Source: Vulcanimicrobiota bacterium
GTDB taxonomy: Bacteria; Vulcanimicrobiota; Vulcanimicrobiia; Vulcanimicrobiales; Vulcanimicrobiaceae
Assembly (NCBI GenBank): GCA_027315245.1
Contig: DAHUYK010000129.1
Location: 1-53,776, forward strand
DNA: 53,776 nt
Direction: 5' to 3'
A program made the position numbers and the translations under genes. Of the stretch, positions 4,998 to 53,776 are shown piece after piece. Numbering within the stretch: position 1 is the stretch's first letter; every line of letters starts with the position of its first letter. Below the pieces are notes generated by a model. The model ran no database searches. It was not told where the DNA came from and worked only from the letters and a program-made list of their open reading frames with translations.

Positions 4998-5138
4998 GTG
5001 ACGCTATGAGCGTATTCCACCTGTCGCCGGCACGACAGGGGCACTTGTCCCAGCGAGGAGGCCTTTGTGGGGCGCTGCGTCCCGGCGCAGCCGGAAGCGG
5101 AGGCTCTGCTGCCTTGCTCACAGTATGAATGAGGAATG

Positions 5139-8096
5139 ATGAACCGAGCTTTGCGCGGCTGCGCGTTGCTGCTTCCCGTACTCATGGCCTTCGCGTTGCC
5201 GGCGAGAGCAGCGCTGGATTTTAGCGGGCTGACGTATCGCGGCATCGGACCTGCGATCGCAGGCGGCCGGACGACGTCAGTCGTCGGCAGTGATGCCGAC
5301 CCGAAGATCTACTATGCCGGGGGTGCGGGTGGCGGCGTCTTCAAGAGCGTTGACGGCGGTGCGAGCTGGACGCCGGTGTTCGATAGCGAGCCCGTGGCTC
5401 CGATTGGGGCGATCGCCGTCGCTCCGCATGACCCGGACGACGTGTGGGTGGGAACAGGCGAGGCCAATCCCCGCAACGACGTGGAGCAGGGTGACGGCAT
5501 GTGGCACTCGACCGACGGTGGAAAGACATGGCGGCACATGGGCTTGCGCGCTGCCGGGTCCATCTCCGCGATCTCCATCGATCCGCGCGATCCGCGGCGT
5601 ATTGTCGTCGCAGCGCTCGGGAACATCTTCCGCGACAATATGATGCGCGGCATTTTCGTTACGAACGATGCCGGCGCTCACTGGAAGCGCGCGCTCTATG
5701 TCAACTCCGGAATCGGCGCTTCGGACGTCGTACGCATGCCGGACCACCCGAGCACGCTCTTCGCCGGCATGTACTACCTGCGGCGCACGCCGTGGACGAT
5801 GATCAGCGGCGGATACGGCGGCGGCATTTGGCGCTCGGACGACAACGGCACGACTTGGCACAAACTCGCCGGCCACGGACTTCCGGGCGGCCCCATCGGT
5901 CGCATCGGCCTCGCCGCCGGAACGCACGGCCGGGTATACGCCGACATGCAGTCGCGTGCAGGCACGCTTTGGCGCTCCGACGACGGCGGCGCGACCTGGC
6001 GCATGATGCCGAACAACGCGCTCGTCGGCGCACGACGCTTCTACTTCTCGAGCATTACGGTCGATCCGGCGAACAACGACAAGCTCATCAGCGTCGGGCT
6101 CATCTTGTCGATGACGACGAACGGCGGTAAGAGCTTTCACGCGATCGCCCAGAATGCTGGCTGGGACTACCATGCGGTTTGGTGGTCGCACGACGGGACG
6201 CGCATCGCCGTCGGAAGCGACGAAGGCGCCGTCATGTCGAAAACGGGCGGCAAAACGTGGATTCAGCCGTACGATCTGCCCTTCGAGCAGCCGTATCATG
6301 TGGCGTTCGACGACATGCTGCCCAACTATCACGTTTGCATCGGTCTCCAAGACGACAACTCGTGGTGCGGCTGGGCGAACAGCCCGAGCGGCATCGGGGT
6401 ACTCGGTCGCGACTGGTTCCAATTCGCCGGCGGCGACGGGATGTGGGCGATGTACGATCCGCTCGATCATCACGACATTTGGACGACGTCCACCTCGAGC
6501 GACACGGGCCAGGTCTTTCTCTACAACACGCGATCGCACGAAGTGAGCGATGTCTCGCCCGACGCGGAGAGCAACGGCGACATGCCGGCCGACATGCTGC
6601 ACTATCGCTTCAACTGGGATACACCCCTGGCGTTCACGTCGAGCGGTGCCGCCCTCGTCGGAGGGAACGTCGTCTTCGAAAGCGCGGATCGCGGCGCGCA
6701 CTGGAGCGTCATCAGTCCGGACCTCACGCGTAACGTTCGCGCTCATCAACGCATTCCTGGTGGGCCGGTCGATGCCGACATGTCAGGGGCCGAGACAGCC
6801 GACAACATTCTCGACATCGAAACGTCGCCGATCGATTCGTCGCTCTACTGGGTGGGCACCGACGACGGCCTCGTGCAGATGACGCGCGACGCCGGTGCCC
6901 ACTGGGAGAACGTCACGCCGGCTATCTTTCCTCACTGGGGACGCGTCGCGACGGTATCGCCGGGTCGCTTCTCGGCGGGGACGGCTTTTGCGGCGGTCGA
7001 CGATCACATGCTCGGTGACGATGTCCCGCATCTCTTTGAGACGACGGATTACGGCGCGCACTGGCGCTCGATCGACGGAAATATGCCGCACGATCTCTAC
7101 GTGCGCGTCGTGAGGCAAGATATCGTCAATCCGAATCTGCTTTACGCGGGTACCCAGCGCGGTGTCTGGGCGTCGTGGGACGGCGGACGGCAATGGCAGT
7201 CGTTGCGACTCAACATGCCGGCAACGGCGATTTACGACATTGAGATTCAACCACACTTCGACGATCTTCTCGTTGCGGCTCATGGACGCGGCGTCTGGAT
7301 CCTCGACGACATCGTACCCCTGCAGCACCCTGCAAACCCGGCTCGCTTCACGATGTTCCCGATTCGTGATACGTACCGGTGGTATCCACTCGCTCCCGTC
7401 AACGCATTCAGTAAGGGAATGCCGGCCAACGAGTTCGTCGGCCCGAACGTCGACTACGGAGCGCTCATCACCTACTGGCTGCCGCGCAAGGAGCGCCACG
7501 TCGCGATCGAGATTCTCGATGCAAACGGGCATCCGATTCGTCACCTGAGCGGCAAAAACGTCACCGGCAAAGCCGGACTCAATCGCATCGCGTGGGATCT
7601 TACCGAAAACCCGCCGACCAAATGGCACGGTACGTACAAGCAGAACCAAGAGCCTGGTGGCGGCGTCGACGTCGTCCCCGGAACGTACACGGTGCGAGTG
7701 CGAGCTGGTGGGATGACGCAGCAGGCCGCCGTCGTCGTCAAGGAAGACCCGCGCGACGACCTGACGCTCGCGCAAGTTCAAGCGCATCACGACCTGCTCG
7801 TGCAGATCGTCGACGAGCTGAGCAGCGTCGACACGATGCTCAACTCGATCGACGGCCGCCTGAAGCACGCCTCACCATCGTTGCGTGCGCGCCTGCTCGC
7901 GTTCCGCCGGCTTCTCACCTACGATCCGCGCAACGTCGAAGATCTCGGCGGTCCCGCAGGCTTGCGGGAGAAGCTCTTGGATCTCTACGGTCGCGTTGGA
8001 ATGTCGTTCGAGCCGGCCTCACAGGCGGAAATCGACACCGCGGCGGCAGATCGCGCGGGCTACCTGCGGCTCGCAGCCGAGTGGAGGACCCTATGA
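5139..8096 (+). CDS. Large secreted BNR/sortilin-type propeller protein (glycosyl-hydrolase-like)
   Basis: A protein of about 985 residues starting with a cleavable signal peptide (LLLPVLMAFALPARA). It then shows many Asp-box/BNR turns of the type S-x-D-G-G-x-T-W (SVDGGASW, STDGGKTW, SDDNGTTW, SDDGGATW, TDYGAHW, SWDGGRQW), forming one or two beta-propellers as in VPS10/sortilin and sialidase folds. The last 300 residues contain an Ig-like segment (TYTVRVRAGG) and a helical tail. Close relatives are annotated as glycosyl hydrolases or exo-sialidases on weak grounds, so the substrate is unknown. ATG 5139 fits the GAGG spacing better than ATG 5136. Its stop overlaps the stop of the convergent sigma-factor gene by six bases. 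Confidence 0.85.
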   Translation: MNRALRGCALLLPVLMAFALPARAALDFSGLTYRGIGPAIAGGRTTSVVGSDADPKIYYAGGAGGGVFKSVDGGASWTPVFDSEPVAPIGAIAVAPHDPDDVWVGTGEANPRNDVEQGDGMWHSTDGGKTWRHMGLRAAGSISAISIDPRDPRRIVVAALGNIFRDNMMRGIFVTNDAGAHWKRALYVNSGIGASDVVRMPDHPSTLFAGMYYLRRTPWTMISGGYGGGIWRSDDNGTTWHKLAGHGLPGGPIGRIGLAAGTHGRVYADMQSRAGTLWRSDDGGATWRMMPNNALVGARRFYFSSITVDPANNDKLISVGLILSMTTNGGKSFHAIAQNAGWDYHAVWWSHDGTRIAVGSDEGAVMSKTGGKTWIQPYDLPFEQPYHVAFDDMLPNYHVCIGLQDDNSWCGWANSPSGIGVLGRDWFQFAGGDGMWAMYDPLDHHDIWTTSTSSDTGQVFLYNTRSHEVSDVSPDAESNGDMPADMLHYRFNWDTPLAFTSSGAALVGGNVVFESADRGAHWSVISPDLTRNVRAHQRIPGGPVDADMSGAETADNILDIETSPIDSSLYWVGTDDGLVQMTRDAGAHWENVTPAIFPHWGRVATVSPGRFSAGTAFAAVDDHMLGDDVPHLFETTDYGAHWRSIDGNMPHDLYVRVVRQDIVNPNLLYAGTQRGVWASWDGGRQWQSLRLNMPATAIYDIEIQPHFDDLLVAAHGRGVWILDDIVPLQHPANPARFTMFPIRDTYRWYPLAPVNAFSKGMPANEFVGPNVDYGALITYWLPRKERHVAIEILDANGHPIRHLSGKNVTGKAGLNRIAWDLTENPPTKWHGTYKQNQEPGGGVDVVPGTYTVRVRAGGMTQQAAVVVKEDPRDDLTLAQVQAHHDLLVQIVDELSSVDTMLNSIDGRLKHASPSLRARLLAFRRLLTYDPRNVEDLGGPAGLREKLLDLYGRVGMSFEPASQAEIDTAAADRAGYLRLAAEWRTL

Positions 8097-11251: not shown

Positions 11252-13351
11252 GTGACTCCTGAACAAGCAATTCTTGCCGGGCTGGTCGGCGGTATTCTGG
11301 CCCTGGGCTATGGCATCGCGCTCATCTTTTGGGTTTTGCGCCAACCCGCCGGCGATACGCGGATGCAAGAGATCGCCGGCGCGATTCAAGAGGGCGCCAT
11401 GGCCTTCTTACAGCGCCAGTATCGTACCATCGGCATCGTTGCGCTCTGCCTTGCCGTCATCATCTACTTCATCCCCACGCTGGGATGGCAGCCGGCCGTT
11501 GGCTTTCTCATCGGCGCCGTGCTTTCGGGTGCAGCTGGCTTCATCGGTATGCTCATCTCCGTTCGTGCAAACGTACGCACTGCCCAGGCGGCGCGCTCCG
11601 GCTTGAAGTCAGCGCTCAGCGTTGCCTTCCGCGGCGGCGCCGTCACGGGGATGCTCGTCGTTGGACTCGGCCTTCTCGCAGTCTCGGGCTACTATTGGAT
11701 CTTACTTGGGGTCAATCACGGCGACACATCGGCATCGCTCGCGGCGATGGTCGGGCTTGCCTTCGGCTGTTCGTTGATTTCGGTCTTCGCGCGCCTGGGC
11801 GGCGGCATCTACACGAAGGCAGCCGACGTCGGAGCAGATCTCGTCGGCAAGGTCGAAGCAGGTATCCCCGAAGACGATCCACGCAATCCGGCAGTCATCG
11901 CCGACAACGTCGGCGACAACGTCGGCGACTGCGCCGGCATGGCGGCGGATCTTTTCGAGACCTACTGCGTGACGACGGTGGCCGCGATGCTGCTGGGCCA
12001 TCTCGTCTTCGGCAATCTTCCAGGCGCGACAACGTTCCCGCTTCTTCTCGGTGCGGTCTCCATCGTTGCCTCGATCATCGGGACGTTCTTCGTCGGCATC
12101 GGAAACGTGCGCAAGAGCACGATTATGGGAGCGCTGTACAGCGGCATGATCGTGGCAGGTCTCCTCGCACTCGCCGGTTTTTGGTTCGTCACGCGCAGCG
12201 TCTTCGACGGAACCGCTATCTCGCCTGAGAAGATATTCCTCTGCGCGCTCGTCGGCATCGCCGTCACCGGCGCGATCACATGGATCACCGAGTATTTCAC
12301 CGGCACACAGTTCAAACCAGTGCAGCTCATCGCAAAATCGTCGACAACCGGTCATGCAACGAACATCATTGCCGGGCTCGCCGTCTCGATGCAGGGCACC
12401 GCGCTCCCGGCAATCGTCATCGTCGCCGGAATCCTCGTCAGCTACGCGCTCGCTACAGTGTACGGCGTCGGCATTGCCGTCATGGCGATGCTTTCGATGG
12501 CCGGCATCATCGTTGCGATCGACTCGTTCGGCCCAATCACCGACAATGCCGGCGGTATCGCCGAGATGGCGAAGATGCCGCAAGAAGTGCGCGACGTCAC
12601 GGACCCGCTCGACGCGGTAGGCAATACCACGAAAGCGGTGACGAAGGGTTATGCCATCGGCTCTGCGGCGCTCGCGGCGATCGTGCTCTTCGCGTCCTTC
12701 ATCCAGGAACTCGTGCAGCGAGGCTGCCCGGGAGGCGGTGCCGCCTGCGCGCAGGCCGTCTCGAACCTCTTCGTCATCAACTATCCCTTCGTGCTCACGG
12801 GCCTCTTCATCGGAGGTCTGCTGCCCTATCTTTTTGCGTCGCTCGCCATGCTCGCCGTCGGTCGCGCGGGTGGTTCCGTCGTCGAAGAAGTGCGCCGGCA
12901 GTTCCGCGAGATTCCCGGCATCATGGAAGGCACCGCCAAGCCAGACTACGGCACAACCGTCGACATCGTGACGCGTGCCGCGCTGCGGGAAATGATCTTG
13001 CCTGCCCTCATTCCGGTCCTCGTCCCAGTGCTCGTGATCGCGCTCACCGCTCTCCATGTCCTTACGGCGGACGCCGGAAAACAGATGATGGGCGGCATCC
13101 TCGTCGGCGCGATCGTTACGGGCCTCTTCGTCGCGATCTCGATGACGACGGGCGGCGGCGCCTGGGACAATGCCAAGAAGTACATCGAAGACGGCAACTA
13201 CGGAGGAAAGGGCTCCGTTGCACATGCAGCAGCCGTAACGGGCGACACCGTGGGCGACCCCTACAAAGATACCGCAGGCCCCGCGATCAATCCGATGATC
13301 AAGGTGCTCAATATCGTCGCGCTCTTGCTCGTGGCGTTCCTAGCGCGCTAA
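11252..13351 (+). CDS. hppA: Membrane-bound proton-translocating pyrophosphatase (K+-independent)
   Basis: A 699-residue polytopic membrane protein with about 16 transmembrane helices. The pyrophosphate site is complete: [20 protein letters not shown] (183-202) and DNVGDNVGD (218-226), with [18 protein letters not shown] near the C-terminus. It couples pyrophosphate hydrolysis to ion pumping. The K+-dependence positions are Lys461 and Thr464 in GNTTKAVT, the combination of the K+-independent H+-pumping class (K+-dependent enzymes have Ala and Gly). The start is GTG with a weak ribosome-binding site; no better start is seen. Confidence 0.96.
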
Positions 13352-49056: not shown

Positions 49057-49806
49057 CTAGGCAAGCGCTTCGGCCACCGCCGCGTCCGAGAGATCGAGCG
49101 TGCTGAAGACACGCTGGACGTCTTCGTGATCGTCGAGCGCCTCGAGAAACGCGAACGCCTGCGAGAGCTGCGGGCCGTGAAGCTCGATTTTCGTCTTGGC
49201 GCGCATGCCGAGGTACGCATCTCGCACGTTCATGCCGCGCTGCGCGATCGCATCGCGTACGGCGGCGAGCGCCGTGGGCTGCGTGTACACGACCGCATCG
49301 TTGACGTCGAACTCGATATCCTCGACGCCGTCGACGAGCACGTCTTCCGTCAGACGATCCTCGGAGCGCCCGTGCGGATCGACTTCGACGAGCCCCAGTG
49401 GCTCGAACATCCACGCGACACTTCCGCTCTCCCCGAGCGTGCCGCCATGCTTCGAAAAGAGAAATCGCAACTCGCCCGCCGTCCGGTTACGATTGTCAGT
49501 CGCGGCGTCCGCAACGACGGCAACCCCATGCGGACCGTAGCCTTCATAACGCAGCTCCTCGATCGCGGCGGCATCGCTCTGGCCGGCGGCGCGTGAGATG
49601 GCGCGCTTGATGTTCTCTTGCGGCATGTTGTTCTCGCGCGCCTTTTCGACGGCAACCTTCAAACGGTAGTTCGCCTCCGGATCGCTCGAGCCGGAACGCA
49701 CCGCTACGATAATCTCTTTGCTGAGCTTCGTGAACAGCGCTCCGCGCTGCGCATCGGCCTTGCCCTTACGCAACTTGATGTTGTGAAACTTCGAGTGCCC
49801 CGACAT
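49057..49806 (-). CDS. yebC: YebC/PmpR-family (TACO1) protein
   Basis: A 249-residue protein: MSGHSKFHNIKLRKGKADAQ, FTKLSKEIIVAVRSG, ANYRLKVAVEKARENNMP and NIKRAISRA are the N-terminal signature; later TDNRNRTAGELRFLFSKHGG and GSVAWMFE. Members act as translation factors at proline-rich sites or as transcription regulators. The start is ATG 49806; it is four bases upstream of the PASTA gene start. Confidence 0.95.
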   Translation of the reverse strand: MSGHSKFHNIKLRKGKADAQRGALFTKLSKEIIVAVRSGSSDPEANYRLKVAVEKARENNMPQENIKRAISRAAGQSDAAAIEELRYEGYGPHGVAVVADAATDNRNRTAGELRFLFSKHGGTLGESGSVAWMFEPLGLVEVDPHGRSEDRLTEDVLVDGVEDIEFDVNDAVVYTQPTALAAVRDAIAQRGMNVRDAYLGMRAKTKIELHGPQLSQAFAFLEALDDHEDVQRVFSTLDLSDAAVAEALA

Positions 49807-49854: not shown

Positions 49855-52800
49855 TTAGCCCGGGCCGATGATCCAGGTCGGCAGCCACATGCGCGCGTGC
49901 CATGCATTGTACGAAAGCGGCCACGCTGAGAGTATCGGGAAGAAAAAGATGAACGCGCCGACGATAGCGCACGTCACGCCGACGACGGCGGCACGGCTGA
50001 GGTACATGACGAGCCGCGCATCCTTCGCGTTACCGGACTTTCCGTACGCGTCTGCCCACGCCCATACACGCTGCAGCACGATCGCGTTGCAGAGGCAGAT
50101 AAGCGGAATGTTGACGTAAAAGTGGTACTCCCAGGCGAGACGCGGCGATTTCGCCCACGGCAGCCACTGCAGGAGATACGTGATGATCAGCAGCGCGTAT
50201 CCCTTGTTCCGTTCGCGCCACGCCAAGACGCCGACGATCGGCACGCAGAGCAGGCCGAACCACAGCGTGAAGGGATTGGGCATCGAGGTTATTTCGTAGA
50301 TGCAGCACTTCTTGTTCGGGTCTGATTGCGTATGATCGGCGCTGCGATGGTCGACGTAGTAGTACGCGACCGGAACGTAGTCGAACGGCCACTCGAACCA
50401 CTTCGACGAGTACGGATGCGTCGCCCTGAGCGTGTAATGGTAGTCAAACATGCTGTACTGGCGAAAAACGACGTCGTTGACGTTGTGGATCTCGTTTGGA
50501 TCGGGGGCCTGACGCGCCATGTCCGGGACCCAGACCAAGCCGTAGATCGTCATCGACACGAGGATGATCGTCACGATGATGCCGTCGAGATAGAACGCGC
50601 GCGGATTCCCCCAGAGCAGCGGACGGCCTTTCGAAAGCCGCCCCTGCAGCCAGATGAGGAAGACGACGAGAAAGCTCACGCCGAAGCCCATGATGCCGTA
50701 CCACTTCGTGCTCACGAGGCATCCGAGCGCGAGCGAGAAAATAATGAGCCATCGCCGTGCGGTGCGGCCGTCTTCAACGTTACCGCCGGCGCGCGCAACA
50801 CCGCCGGCGTACGTGCCGGTGCCGGCCGCCGTTGCGTACGTGACGCTGTCGCGGCCGTAGGTAACTTCGAGATCGTCGTCGTCGTAGACGAGCGCGCCGC
50901 CCTTGCTCTGTGTGAAGGCGCCGCGCTTTGTCTTCCCTTTGCTCACGATGCCGCCGTCGATCGTGTGCATCTCGGATTCGGCGCCTTCTTGGAGCGCGAA
51001 CGAGCCTTCCGGAAAGGTCACCTCGCGCTTTCCGCTCGCGAAGAGTCTCGGTGCTACTTTGTACCGGAATATCCAATAGTAGACGAGCGCGAAGTAGACG
51101 CTGCAGATCTCGATGGCTCCGGGGCCGTGCGTGACGTCGAGCCCCATCCACCACACGAACCACGGCCAGTGCAGCACCGTATGTTGGAGCCAATCGAAAA
51201 CGAGCATCGTGACGATGCCGCAGGCCAGCGACGCCCCCGCACCTGCGGCGAGGGCGGGCCAGCGCACGTCGAGATGTGGGCGCACCCCCGTCTGCGAGGC
51301 GATCCAGAAGCGGTAGAACGCATAGACCGCCGTGAGCGAGAAGACGATGACGAACCCTTCGGGGGTCGCGAGGCGCGACTGCACGTAGTGCATGCCGTCG
51401 AAGAGAAAGAACCCGGCTGCAACCGCCGCCCAGATCGTCGACCCGGTGACGCGCTTGGCGAAGGCGTACAGCACCATGATCGCCACCGCGCCGAAGACGA
51501 CGTCCAAGAAACGCCAGCCCGCAGGATTGTCGCCATCGGGAAAGTGACCGATGATCGCGTTGAGAAACGTCCAGCCTCCGAGGCCGTGACCCTTCGGCAT
51601 CCCGCCGAAGAGCATCGTCGAGAACGTGATGAGAAGTTTCGAAAGCGGCGGGTGCGTATTTTCGTAGATGCGCAGGTTCTTGAGGTACTCTTCCGCCGCG
51701 CGGCCAAAGTACGTTTCGTCGAAGATGCCGCAGTGCGTCCCACCGCCGCCTTCGACCGTCCAGCACTCCGTGCCGGTTGGCTTCCAGTACCAGTGCGGGA
51801 TCGCAAGCGAGAGAACGAAGCTCGCTACGCCCAACGACCACATCACCGCAAGGTCGAGTGGCTTGCGGAGAACAGCAAGCCCTTCATGCGGATCGAACCA
51901 CGCGCGCATGCGCCCGAAGAAATCCGTCCCCAGTTCGCTCAGCGTACTGCGTGCCTTGACGGGCTCGTCGGCAGCGCTGCCGAGATACACGTAACCGAGG
52001 TAGAAGAACGTTGCAACGTTCACGAGCGCAAGGACCGTCGTCGCCGGCCCCCAGAGATTGTGCGGGTCGGCTCCCGACGGCGCATGCGACGTCATGAGCG
52101 CGATGTACTGATACGAGTAGATGAGGTTGAGCCAGAAGACGGTTGAGAGCGTAACCCCGGCCCACAAATAGCGTTTAGCGATCGGCAGGCACGCGATCGT
52201 GAAGACGACGCCGTCGTAGATGTACCGCTCGTGCATGCGCGTTGCCAGCGTGAAGAAAGCGAGCAAGGCGATGGCGCAGCCTTCGAGCAGCGCTTGCGGC
52301 GTCTGCACCTGAACGTACCGCCACACGAGCAGCGCGAGCGCGACGAGCACGAGCACGACGCCCCACGTCGCCTGCGCTAGGCCGAAAATCGCGGTGCCGT
52401 CGGGTTGCCAGAACGCTCCGCTCCCGGCGTTCCACGGCACGTGGAGCACCCAGATGTTGAACGCGTTCACCGAGTTGAACTGATAGACGTTCGTGCCGTA
52501 GGCCAAGCGCTCGAAGAGCCATGCGAGCGCGGCGATCGGGTTCGAGGGATGGAAGGGCTCAACGAGCAGGATGACGAGCGCGAGTGCGCCGAGCAGCGCG
52601 TACGCGGTAGCGCGCAAGCGCAGCGCGCGGCGCGCGGGGTTCGTGAAGGCGAACGCGAGCAGAAACGGCAGCATGACTGCGGCCTGCGGCTTGACGAGCA
52701 GCGAGTACGCAAACGAGAGCCAGCCGCACACGATCCATGCCGTCGCGGCGCCCGTTTCCTCGTCGTCGCTGCGCATCAGCGCGTAGACGGCGAAGAGCGC

Positions 52801-53776
52801 GAAGAAGCAGGCGACGGAATCGACCTGCCCCCAGAGGGCCGAAACGAAGATGATTGCGGGGTTTATGAGGTAGAGCGCCGCTGCCCAGAGCGCGAGCCGC
52901 TCGGAACCGAAGCGACGCGCGAGCGTGTAGACGAGCGCGCCGATGCCGAGATCGAAGAAGATCGCGGGAAGCTTCACGAGCATCGCGAGGATCCCGTAAC
53001 CGGGATCGTGTGCGCTTCCGACGACGTGCGTCCAGATCCATCCGATGAAGCCCAGAATGTAGAAGTATCCGGGCGGATAGTCCAGGAACGACGTGTTCGC
53101 GTAGAGCCCGCTCGGGCCATGTGCCACGAGCGTGAGCGCCCACGATTGGAACGCGGCGATGTCGTTGGGGAATCCCTGCGCACCGATGTATGCGAGGCGC
53201 AGTAAAAGGCCGACGAAGAGCATCACCGGCAATGCCCAGCGGTTCAGGCCCGAGACGCGCTGTGCGCTATCGGCCTTGCGGCCGAGCGTATCGATCTCTC
53301 CCATGACGGCGTCCGTGAACTTCGCCAAGTCGTCGCGCGTTGCTTTTCGGCCGGCCTCGAGCTGCATCGGACACCCGAAGACGACCTCGATGGAGCCGCA
53401 TCGCAGCGCGGACCGGCTGCCGACGATCGCTGCCGGCACGACCGGCGCATGGCTGAGCGAAGCCAGGAGCGCAACCCCCTGGCGTACCTGCGCCTCGCCG
53501 CGCGGATTACGCCCCCCTTCGGGAAAGATTCCGATCGCCTCGCCGGCGCGCAACACCTCGACGGAACGCTTGACGGCGCCCGCTGCGCTCCCCTCGCGGT
53601 CGACGGGGAAGGCGCCCAGCGCGCGGATGAGCGGGCCGAGGAGTGGAACTGCGAAGAGCTGACGCTTTGCCATGTAGCGAATCGTGCGCGGGCAGCACGC
53701 GCCGAGCACCGGAGGGTCGACGAGCGAGACGTGATTGCACGCGATGATGACCGGCCCATGCGCTGGAACGTTCTGC
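49855..53776 (-). CDS. PlsC-type acyltransferase / Gpi18-like GT-C / PMT (GT39) fusion, cut by the right edge
   Basis: One uninterrupted frame of about 1,306 visible residues; the true start is beyond the window. It opens with PlsC motif I, NHVSLVD (H-x4-D, codons 53716-53733), and motif III, FPEGGR (53509-53526). After a linker (ending near QRVSGLNRW) come about ten helices of a Gpi18-like glycosyltransferase (GFPNDIAAFQSWA, LDYPPGYFYILGF, ALWGQVDSVA). A second transmembrane set follows with the PMT signatures FDETYFGRAAEEYL and YENTHPPLSKLL, and a 90-residue hydrophilic insert (KREVTFPEGSF ... AGGNVEDG). It should use polyprenyl-phosphate mannose outside and acyl donors inside. No stop, frameshift or start lies between the modules. 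Confidence 0.88.
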   Translation of the reverse strand, partial: QNVPAHGPVIIACNHVSLVDPPVLGACCPRTIRYMAKRQLFAVPLLGPLIRALGAFPVDREGSAAGAVKRSVEVLRAGEAIGIFPEGGRNPRGEAQVRQGVALLASLSHAPVVPAAIVGSRSALRCGSIEVVFGCPMQLEAGRKATRDDLAKFTDAVMGEIDTLGRKADSAQRVSGLNRWALPVMLFVGLLLRLAYIGAQGFPNDIAAFQSWALTLVAHGPSGLYANTSFLDYPPGYFYILGFIGWIWTHVVGSAHDPGYGILAMLVKLPAIFFDLGIGALVYTLARRFGSERLALWAAALYLINPAIIFVSALWGQVDSVACFFALFAVYALMRSDDEETGAATAWIVCGWLSFAYSLLVKPQAAVMLPFLLAFAFTNPARRALRLRATAYALLGALALVILLVEPFHPSNPIAALAWLFERLAYGTNVYQFNSVNAFNIWVLHVPWNAGSGAFWQPDGTAIFGLAQATWGVVLVLVALALLVWRYVQVQTPQALLEGCAIALLAFFTLATRMHERYIYDGVVFTIACLPIAKRYLWAGVTLSTVFWLNLIYSYQYIALMTSHAPSGADPHNLWGPATTVLALVNVATFFYLGYVYLGSAADEPVKARSTLSELGTDFFGRMRAWFDPHEGLAVLRKPLDLAVMWSLGVASFVLSLAIPHWYWKPTGTECWTVEGGGGTHCGIFDETYFGRAAEEYLKNLRIYENTHPPLSKLLITFSTMLFGGMPKGHGLGGWTFLNAIIGHFPDGDNPAGWRFLDVVFGAVAIMVLYAFAKRVTGSTIWAAVAAGFFLFDGMHYVQSRLATPEGFVIVFSLTAVYAFYRFWIASQTGVRPHLDVRWPALAAGAGASLACGIVTMLVFDWLQHTVLHWPWFVWWMGLDVTHGPGAIEICSVYFALVYYWIFRYKVAPRLFASGKREVTFPEGSFALQEGAESEMHTIDGGIVSKGKTKRGAFTQSKGGALVYDDDDLEVTYGRDSVTYATAAGTGTYAGGVARAGGNVEDGRTARRWLIIFSLALGCLVSTKWYGIMGFGVSFLVVFLIWLQGRLSKGRPLLWGNPRAFYLDGIIVTIILVSMTIYGLVWVPDMARQAPDPNEIHNVNDVVFRQYSMFDYHYTLRATHPYSSKWFEWPFDYVPVAYYYVDHRSADHTQSDPNKKCCIYEITSMPNPFTLWFGLLCVPIVGVLAWRERNKGYALLIITYLLQWLPWAKSPRLAWEYHFYVNIPLICLCNAIVLQRVWAWADAYGKSGNAKDARLVMYLSRAAVVGVTCAIVGAFIFFFPILSAWPLSYNAWHARMWLPTWIIGPG

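Follow-up and report, generated by a model that had tools for sequence, protein, structure and literature searches.

Organization of the open reading frame

The window, which is the whole 53,776-nucleotide stretch of DNA that was analysed, was an entire contig (C47) of a MAG of 169 contigs and 2.12 Mb, 96% complete. As assembled, it contained a single uninterrupted frame of 1306 codons on the minus strand (49855-53775), as an earlier sequence-only reading had described, and a stop codon at 53250-53300 was absent from the assembly. The frame was composed of a PlsC part, a GT-C half resembling ALG3/ALG6/PimE, and a PMT half, in this order. The Pfam matches, all above cut-off, were Acyltransferase (PF01553; residues 1-117, 91.7 bits against a cut-off of 23), PMT_2 (267-402, 48.2 bits), PMT (684-876, 79.6 bits), and PMT_4TMC (1104-1301, 59.6 bits). 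The earlier reading had recognized these domains correctly, but its name 'Gpi18-like' for the first GT-C half was not supported, as Pfam gave PMT_2 and the fold was nearest to ALG3, ALG6, PIG-M, and PimE. The GTG at 53709, which had been taken as the start, was an internal codon because the frame remained open at the contig end; in the DNA alignment with the congeners, about 26 N-terminal PlsC residues were missing. The features were located as follows.

53260..53775, minus: PlsC-type acyltransferase (1-acylglycerol-3-phosphate acyltransferase), N-terminus lost at the contig end (Pfam PF01553, motifs)
53239..53283, minus: fusion junction (DNA alignment with six congeners)
53244..53247, minus: CTGA, remnant of the GTGA stop-start overlap of the congeners (DNA alignment)
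51958..53247, minus: N-terminal GT-C half with an ALG3/ALG6/PIG-M/PimE-like fold (PF13231, fold comparison)
51868..51957, minus: charged linker between the GT-C halves, probably cytosolic (pLDDT<50 at 427-443, charge count)
49858..51867, minus: C-terminal protein O-mannosyltransferase (PMT, GT39-like) half (PF02366 and PF16192, fold)
51040..51294, minus: class-specific insert part 1, two extra helices (663-692, 710-736), probably transmembrane (model)
50770..51039, minus: class-specific insert part 2, a 90-residue beta-meander domain, probably cytosolic (model)
49057..49806, minus: yebC/TACO1 gene, conserved downstream neighbour, followed by a PASTA protein, rpe, and thiL (Pfam of relatives, synteny)

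The PlsC part had the catalytic motifs NHVSLVD at residue 14 (NHX4D) and FPEG at residue 84, together with VPAA. The TIGR00530 AGP acyltransferase profile gave 86.9 bits against a cut-off of 102.95, with the N-terminus of the query cut by the contig end. Homology to the PlsC of a congener stopped near residue 172. The part therefore resembled PlsC/AGPAT enzymes in its Pfam match, its NHX4D and FPEG motifs, and the cmk gene found upstream in relatives, whereas it differed in the end of the gene: in this one assembly, the window PlsC continued without a stop into the next gene.

The junction and the separate genes of relatives

In each of the seven congeners, plsC stood apart as a gene ended by its own stop codon. 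This stop overlapped the GTG start of the transferase as GTGA in six of them, and in the seventh, G003, ispH was located between the two genes. When the junction was aligned with the six congeners with adjacent genes, the frames of PlsC and the transferase differed in all six. Relative to its closest congeners, the three genomes G006, G004, and G002, the window had an additional base in the last, unconserved codons of plsC, and this extra base brought PlsC into the frame of the transferase. The former TGA of plsC was still found at 53244-53246 but no longer in frame, and the former GTG start of the transferase was changed to CTG (53245-53247).

The first search covered 118 genomes, with residues 177-1306 as the transferase part. 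The transferase was one protein in most of these genomes, and the PlsC matches sat apart from it. The second search gave 80 loci, with plsC upstream on the same strand in 65 (including four of the seven congeners) and with its own stop in every one of the 65. At these loci, the spacing between the end of plsC and the double transferase ranged from an overlap up to 2.3 kb; outside the genus it was ~0.8-2.3 kb, and the gap was occupied by ispH and/or a PF00348 polyprenyl synthase. The arrangement that the sequence-only reading had named as refuting its proposal, with plsC and the mannosyltransferase as separate genes in close relatives, was thus observed in the seven congeners and at the 65 loci. 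Among the relatives checked, the triple fusion was present in this assembly only. Since every checked relative keeps the genes apart, it looks like a recent accident in one species. A second genome of this species was not found among the eight genomes of the genus, and a contig search, which may omit records near the window, gave nothing nearer than 73%; its closest matches were MAGs of Candidatus Eremiobacterota, in line with a source in that phylum.

Overall structure of the double GT-C protein

The double GT-C protein of ~1,030-1,150 residues was encoded in one frame in nearly all genomes of the family, order, and class. The conserved unit is this joined pair of GT-C transferases, a class-wide design that is probably functional. 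The predicted model had a pLDDT of 87.5 and a pTM of 0.73. When residues 1-430 of the model were compared with known structures, the VIA Z values were 29.1 for ALG3, 27.1 for ALG6, 25.0 for GPI mannosyltransferase I (PIG-M type), and 20.1 for PimE. The N-terminal half shared with ALG3, ALG6, GPI mannosyltransferase I (PIG-M/Gpi14), and PimE the fold over 348-397 residues (Z 20-29) and the loop-1 aspartate, whereas the sequence identity was 12-16% and the window half was fused to a PMT. In the alignment of 64 double GT-C proteins, the loop-1 residue Asp29 (53161-53163) and the motif D56-Y-P were invariant. Judged from its position, Asp29 would be the equivalent of the known catalytic residue. 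With the Gpi18/PIG-V profile, no Pfam match was obtained at E<=1, only PMT_2 being found, and such an absent match does not exclude Gpi18/PIG-V.

In the literature searched, no description was found of a protein that combines two GT-Cs with a class-specific beta-domain. The search for Eremiobacterota with a mannosyltransferase gave no paper, and that for two or tandem GT-C domains yielded a single one, which dealt with separate streptococcal enzymes.

The PMT half and its class-specific insert

Residues 461-1130 of the model were well matched to Pmt2 (VIA Z 32.4, rmsd 3.4, 435 residues) and Pmt4 (VIA Z 32.2). The acidic pair of loop 1, D510-E511 (51715-51720), was invariant in the alignment of 64 double GT-C proteins; in the same alignment, T531-H-P-P was kept and R1036 was nearly invariant. 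In the M. tuberculosis enzyme (MtPMT), the first Asp of the corresponding pair, D74-E75, is essential, and the order of the two residues is also important (PMC12331936). The PMT and PMT_4TMC profiles, above their cut-offs in the window protein, were matched by 20 of the 20 members of A1. The NCBIfam equivalog for bacterial PMT, NF058602, scored 42.4 bits, far below its cut-off of 800, and the half was therefore assigned as PMT-like rather than to that equivalog.

The PMT half was thus like the GT39 PMTs (yeast Pmt1, Pmt2, and Pmt4, and M. tuberculosis PMT) in its fold over 428-443 residues (Z 31-32), the loop-1 DE pair, the Pfam PMT and PMT_4TMC matches, and a conserved arginine near the C-terminal loop. 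Unlike these enzymes, it was joined to a second GT-C, had two additional helices together with a beta-domain that is probably cytosolic, and gave no MIR match in Pfam.

The beta-domain consisted of 12 strands at residues 737-826, with a pLDDT of about 95 in the full model and 90.2 when the domain was predicted alone. When the helices of the model were counted from a cytosolic N-terminus, the domain was placed probably on the cytosolic side. A stretch of 78-104 residues was present at the insert position in 64 of the 64 aligned sequences, and the stand-alone PMTs of other families in the phylum aligned straight across ~652-826 without it. The charged 90-residue insert pointed out by the earlier reading (residues 892-984, corresponding to 738-830 of the GT-C part) therefore exists, but it is class-wide and no special feature of this protein. 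The insert was rejected as a MIR domain because Pfam gave no MIR match and because it lies in another loop than the one preceding PMT_4TMC. Of 47 members, 11 gave a weak match of the beta-domain to the Tcp10_C profile (best E 5.5e-5), and comparison with the Tcp10/G-box sheet gave a Z of 6.9 over 53 residues, a range that possibly means only a common arrangement; no conclusion was based on this weak likeness.

Gene neighbourhood and proposed origin of the fusion

In most of the family, the operon order was cmk-plsC-ispH-polyprenyl synthase-double GT-C-yebC-PASTA-rpe-thiL. In G015, cmk and plsC were not beside the double GT-C gene, and G003 represented an intermediate that kept ispH but not the polyprenyl synthase between plsC and the double GT-C gene. 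The ispH gene was located on another contig in five congeners and in the operon in G003. In a profile search, IspH (PF02401) was not found in the genome of the window or in G006, which may reflect an assembly gap or a loss.

Outside the class, the GT-C and PMT halves were mostly separate genes. Other families of the phylum encoded homologues of the window halves as single PMTs and GT-Cs, in frames of 423-581 residues; these differed in being separate genes without the class-specific insert. The PMT half occurred alone in several of these families, so the halves are not obligatorily linked. GT-C and PMT formed a tandem gene pair in G094, and a fused GT-C/PMT protein of 1146 residues without the two helices and the beta-domain was encoded in G098, a genome of another family (L158:5473-8910); the latter may be an independent fusion or may have lost the insert. 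The first GT-C half also had a homologue that stood alone in G093 and carried a C-terminal NPCBM/NEW2 domain (L161:2587-4326).

These arrangements suggest a route to the triple fusion. In the genus, the space between plsC and the double GT-C gene has lost the polyprenyl synthase gene and, except in G003, ispH, which brought the two genes together with the GTGA stop-start overlap visible in six of the congeners. A change in length by one base in the unconserved tail of plsC would then have produced the single frame in this species, and the GTG start became CTG; both changes are seen in the assembly. Taken as a whole, this account of operon shrinkage, overlap, and a one-base change beside a conserved protein with two transferases is reasonably likely. 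The living intermediates illustrate these three steps, by which two genes can become fused by chance.

The genuineness of the junction depends on the one additional base. The base sequence there is quite likely correct. An assembly or sequencing error would mean that the plsC stop is masked by one spurious base close to the contig end and that the genes are in reality separate and overlapping as in the congeners. It would fit with the single MAG, with a junction that lies ~520 bases from the contig end and thus in the least reliable part of an assembly, and with the retention of the TGA at the homologous position. Such an error is nevertheless improbable, as the genuine genes that the contig shares with three congeners, over ~17 kb, all aligned in one frame with no other frameshift. 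Apparent multi-frame matches in this check were antisense shadow frames and were not counted as genes. Moreover, a one-base insertion does not explain the GTG to CTG change, which is independent of it and would be expected to follow when the start is no longer needed, and the length of the plsC tail varies among the congeners, so that a real length change would be easy there. If the frame is real, two proteins might still be produced, with the transferase also restarting internally beside the fusion, at CTG 53247 or at a TTG or GTG just downstream. The dependence of the congeners on stop-start coupling at this place and the TTG and GTG codons just inside the first helix are in line with such a restart, but the PlsC frame has no stop, so that every full translation gives the fusion, and no clear ribosome-binding site was seen at the junction; internal restart is therefore considered unlikely.

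Implications for function

The conserved loop-1 acids and the known GT-C folds make both halves of the double GT-C protein look like active GT-C transferases, and the prediction that both are transferases is likely to be right. Each half would probably move a sugar from a polyprenyl-phosphate-sugar donor on the extracytoplasmic side. The acceptor of the PMT half would most likely be an exported protein, and that of the ALG3/PimE-like half a glycan or lipid, perhaps by extension of the first sugar. Tentatively, the two halves may act in series in the glycosylation of an exported protein or an envelope glycan. The class consists largely of uncultured bacteria, and the retention of the double GT-C protein throughout it points to a pathway of envelope or protein glycosylation there.

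The PlsC was the sole PF01553 acyltransferase found in the genome, so that ordinary phosphatidate synthesis is its simplest role; most likely it performs this synthesis, whether tethered or not. If the fused product is translated, PlsC would be tethered to the transferase at the cytoplasmic face. As the N-terminus of the transferase would also be cytoplasmic, both could keep their old jobs.

The sequence-only reading had proposed a machine in which the acylation of a lipid is coupled with mannosylation, for instance in the synthesis of an acylated glycolipid anchor. In favour of such a trifunctional enzyme are the compatible topology and the gene neighbourhood, in which plsC, isoprenoid genes, and the double GT-C gene are kept together. 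The same neighbourhood also contains the unrelated housekeeping genes cmk, yebC, rpe, and thiL, the fusion occurs in one species only, and no acyltransferase of this kind other than this PlsC was found in the genome. With plsC a separate gene in the relatives described above, the proposed coupling was not supported, and an acylated-anchor enzyme of this kind is very improbable. The same very low probability applies to a single trifunctional chain with a real functional link, such as one that channels the synthesis of membrane lipids towards an anchor for glycolipids or glycoproteins.

Elsewhere in the window, the plus strand encoded a Sortilin/Vps10-like protein with BNR repeats (5136-8096, 986 residues) and a membrane H+-pumping pyrophosphatase (11252-13351, 699 residues).
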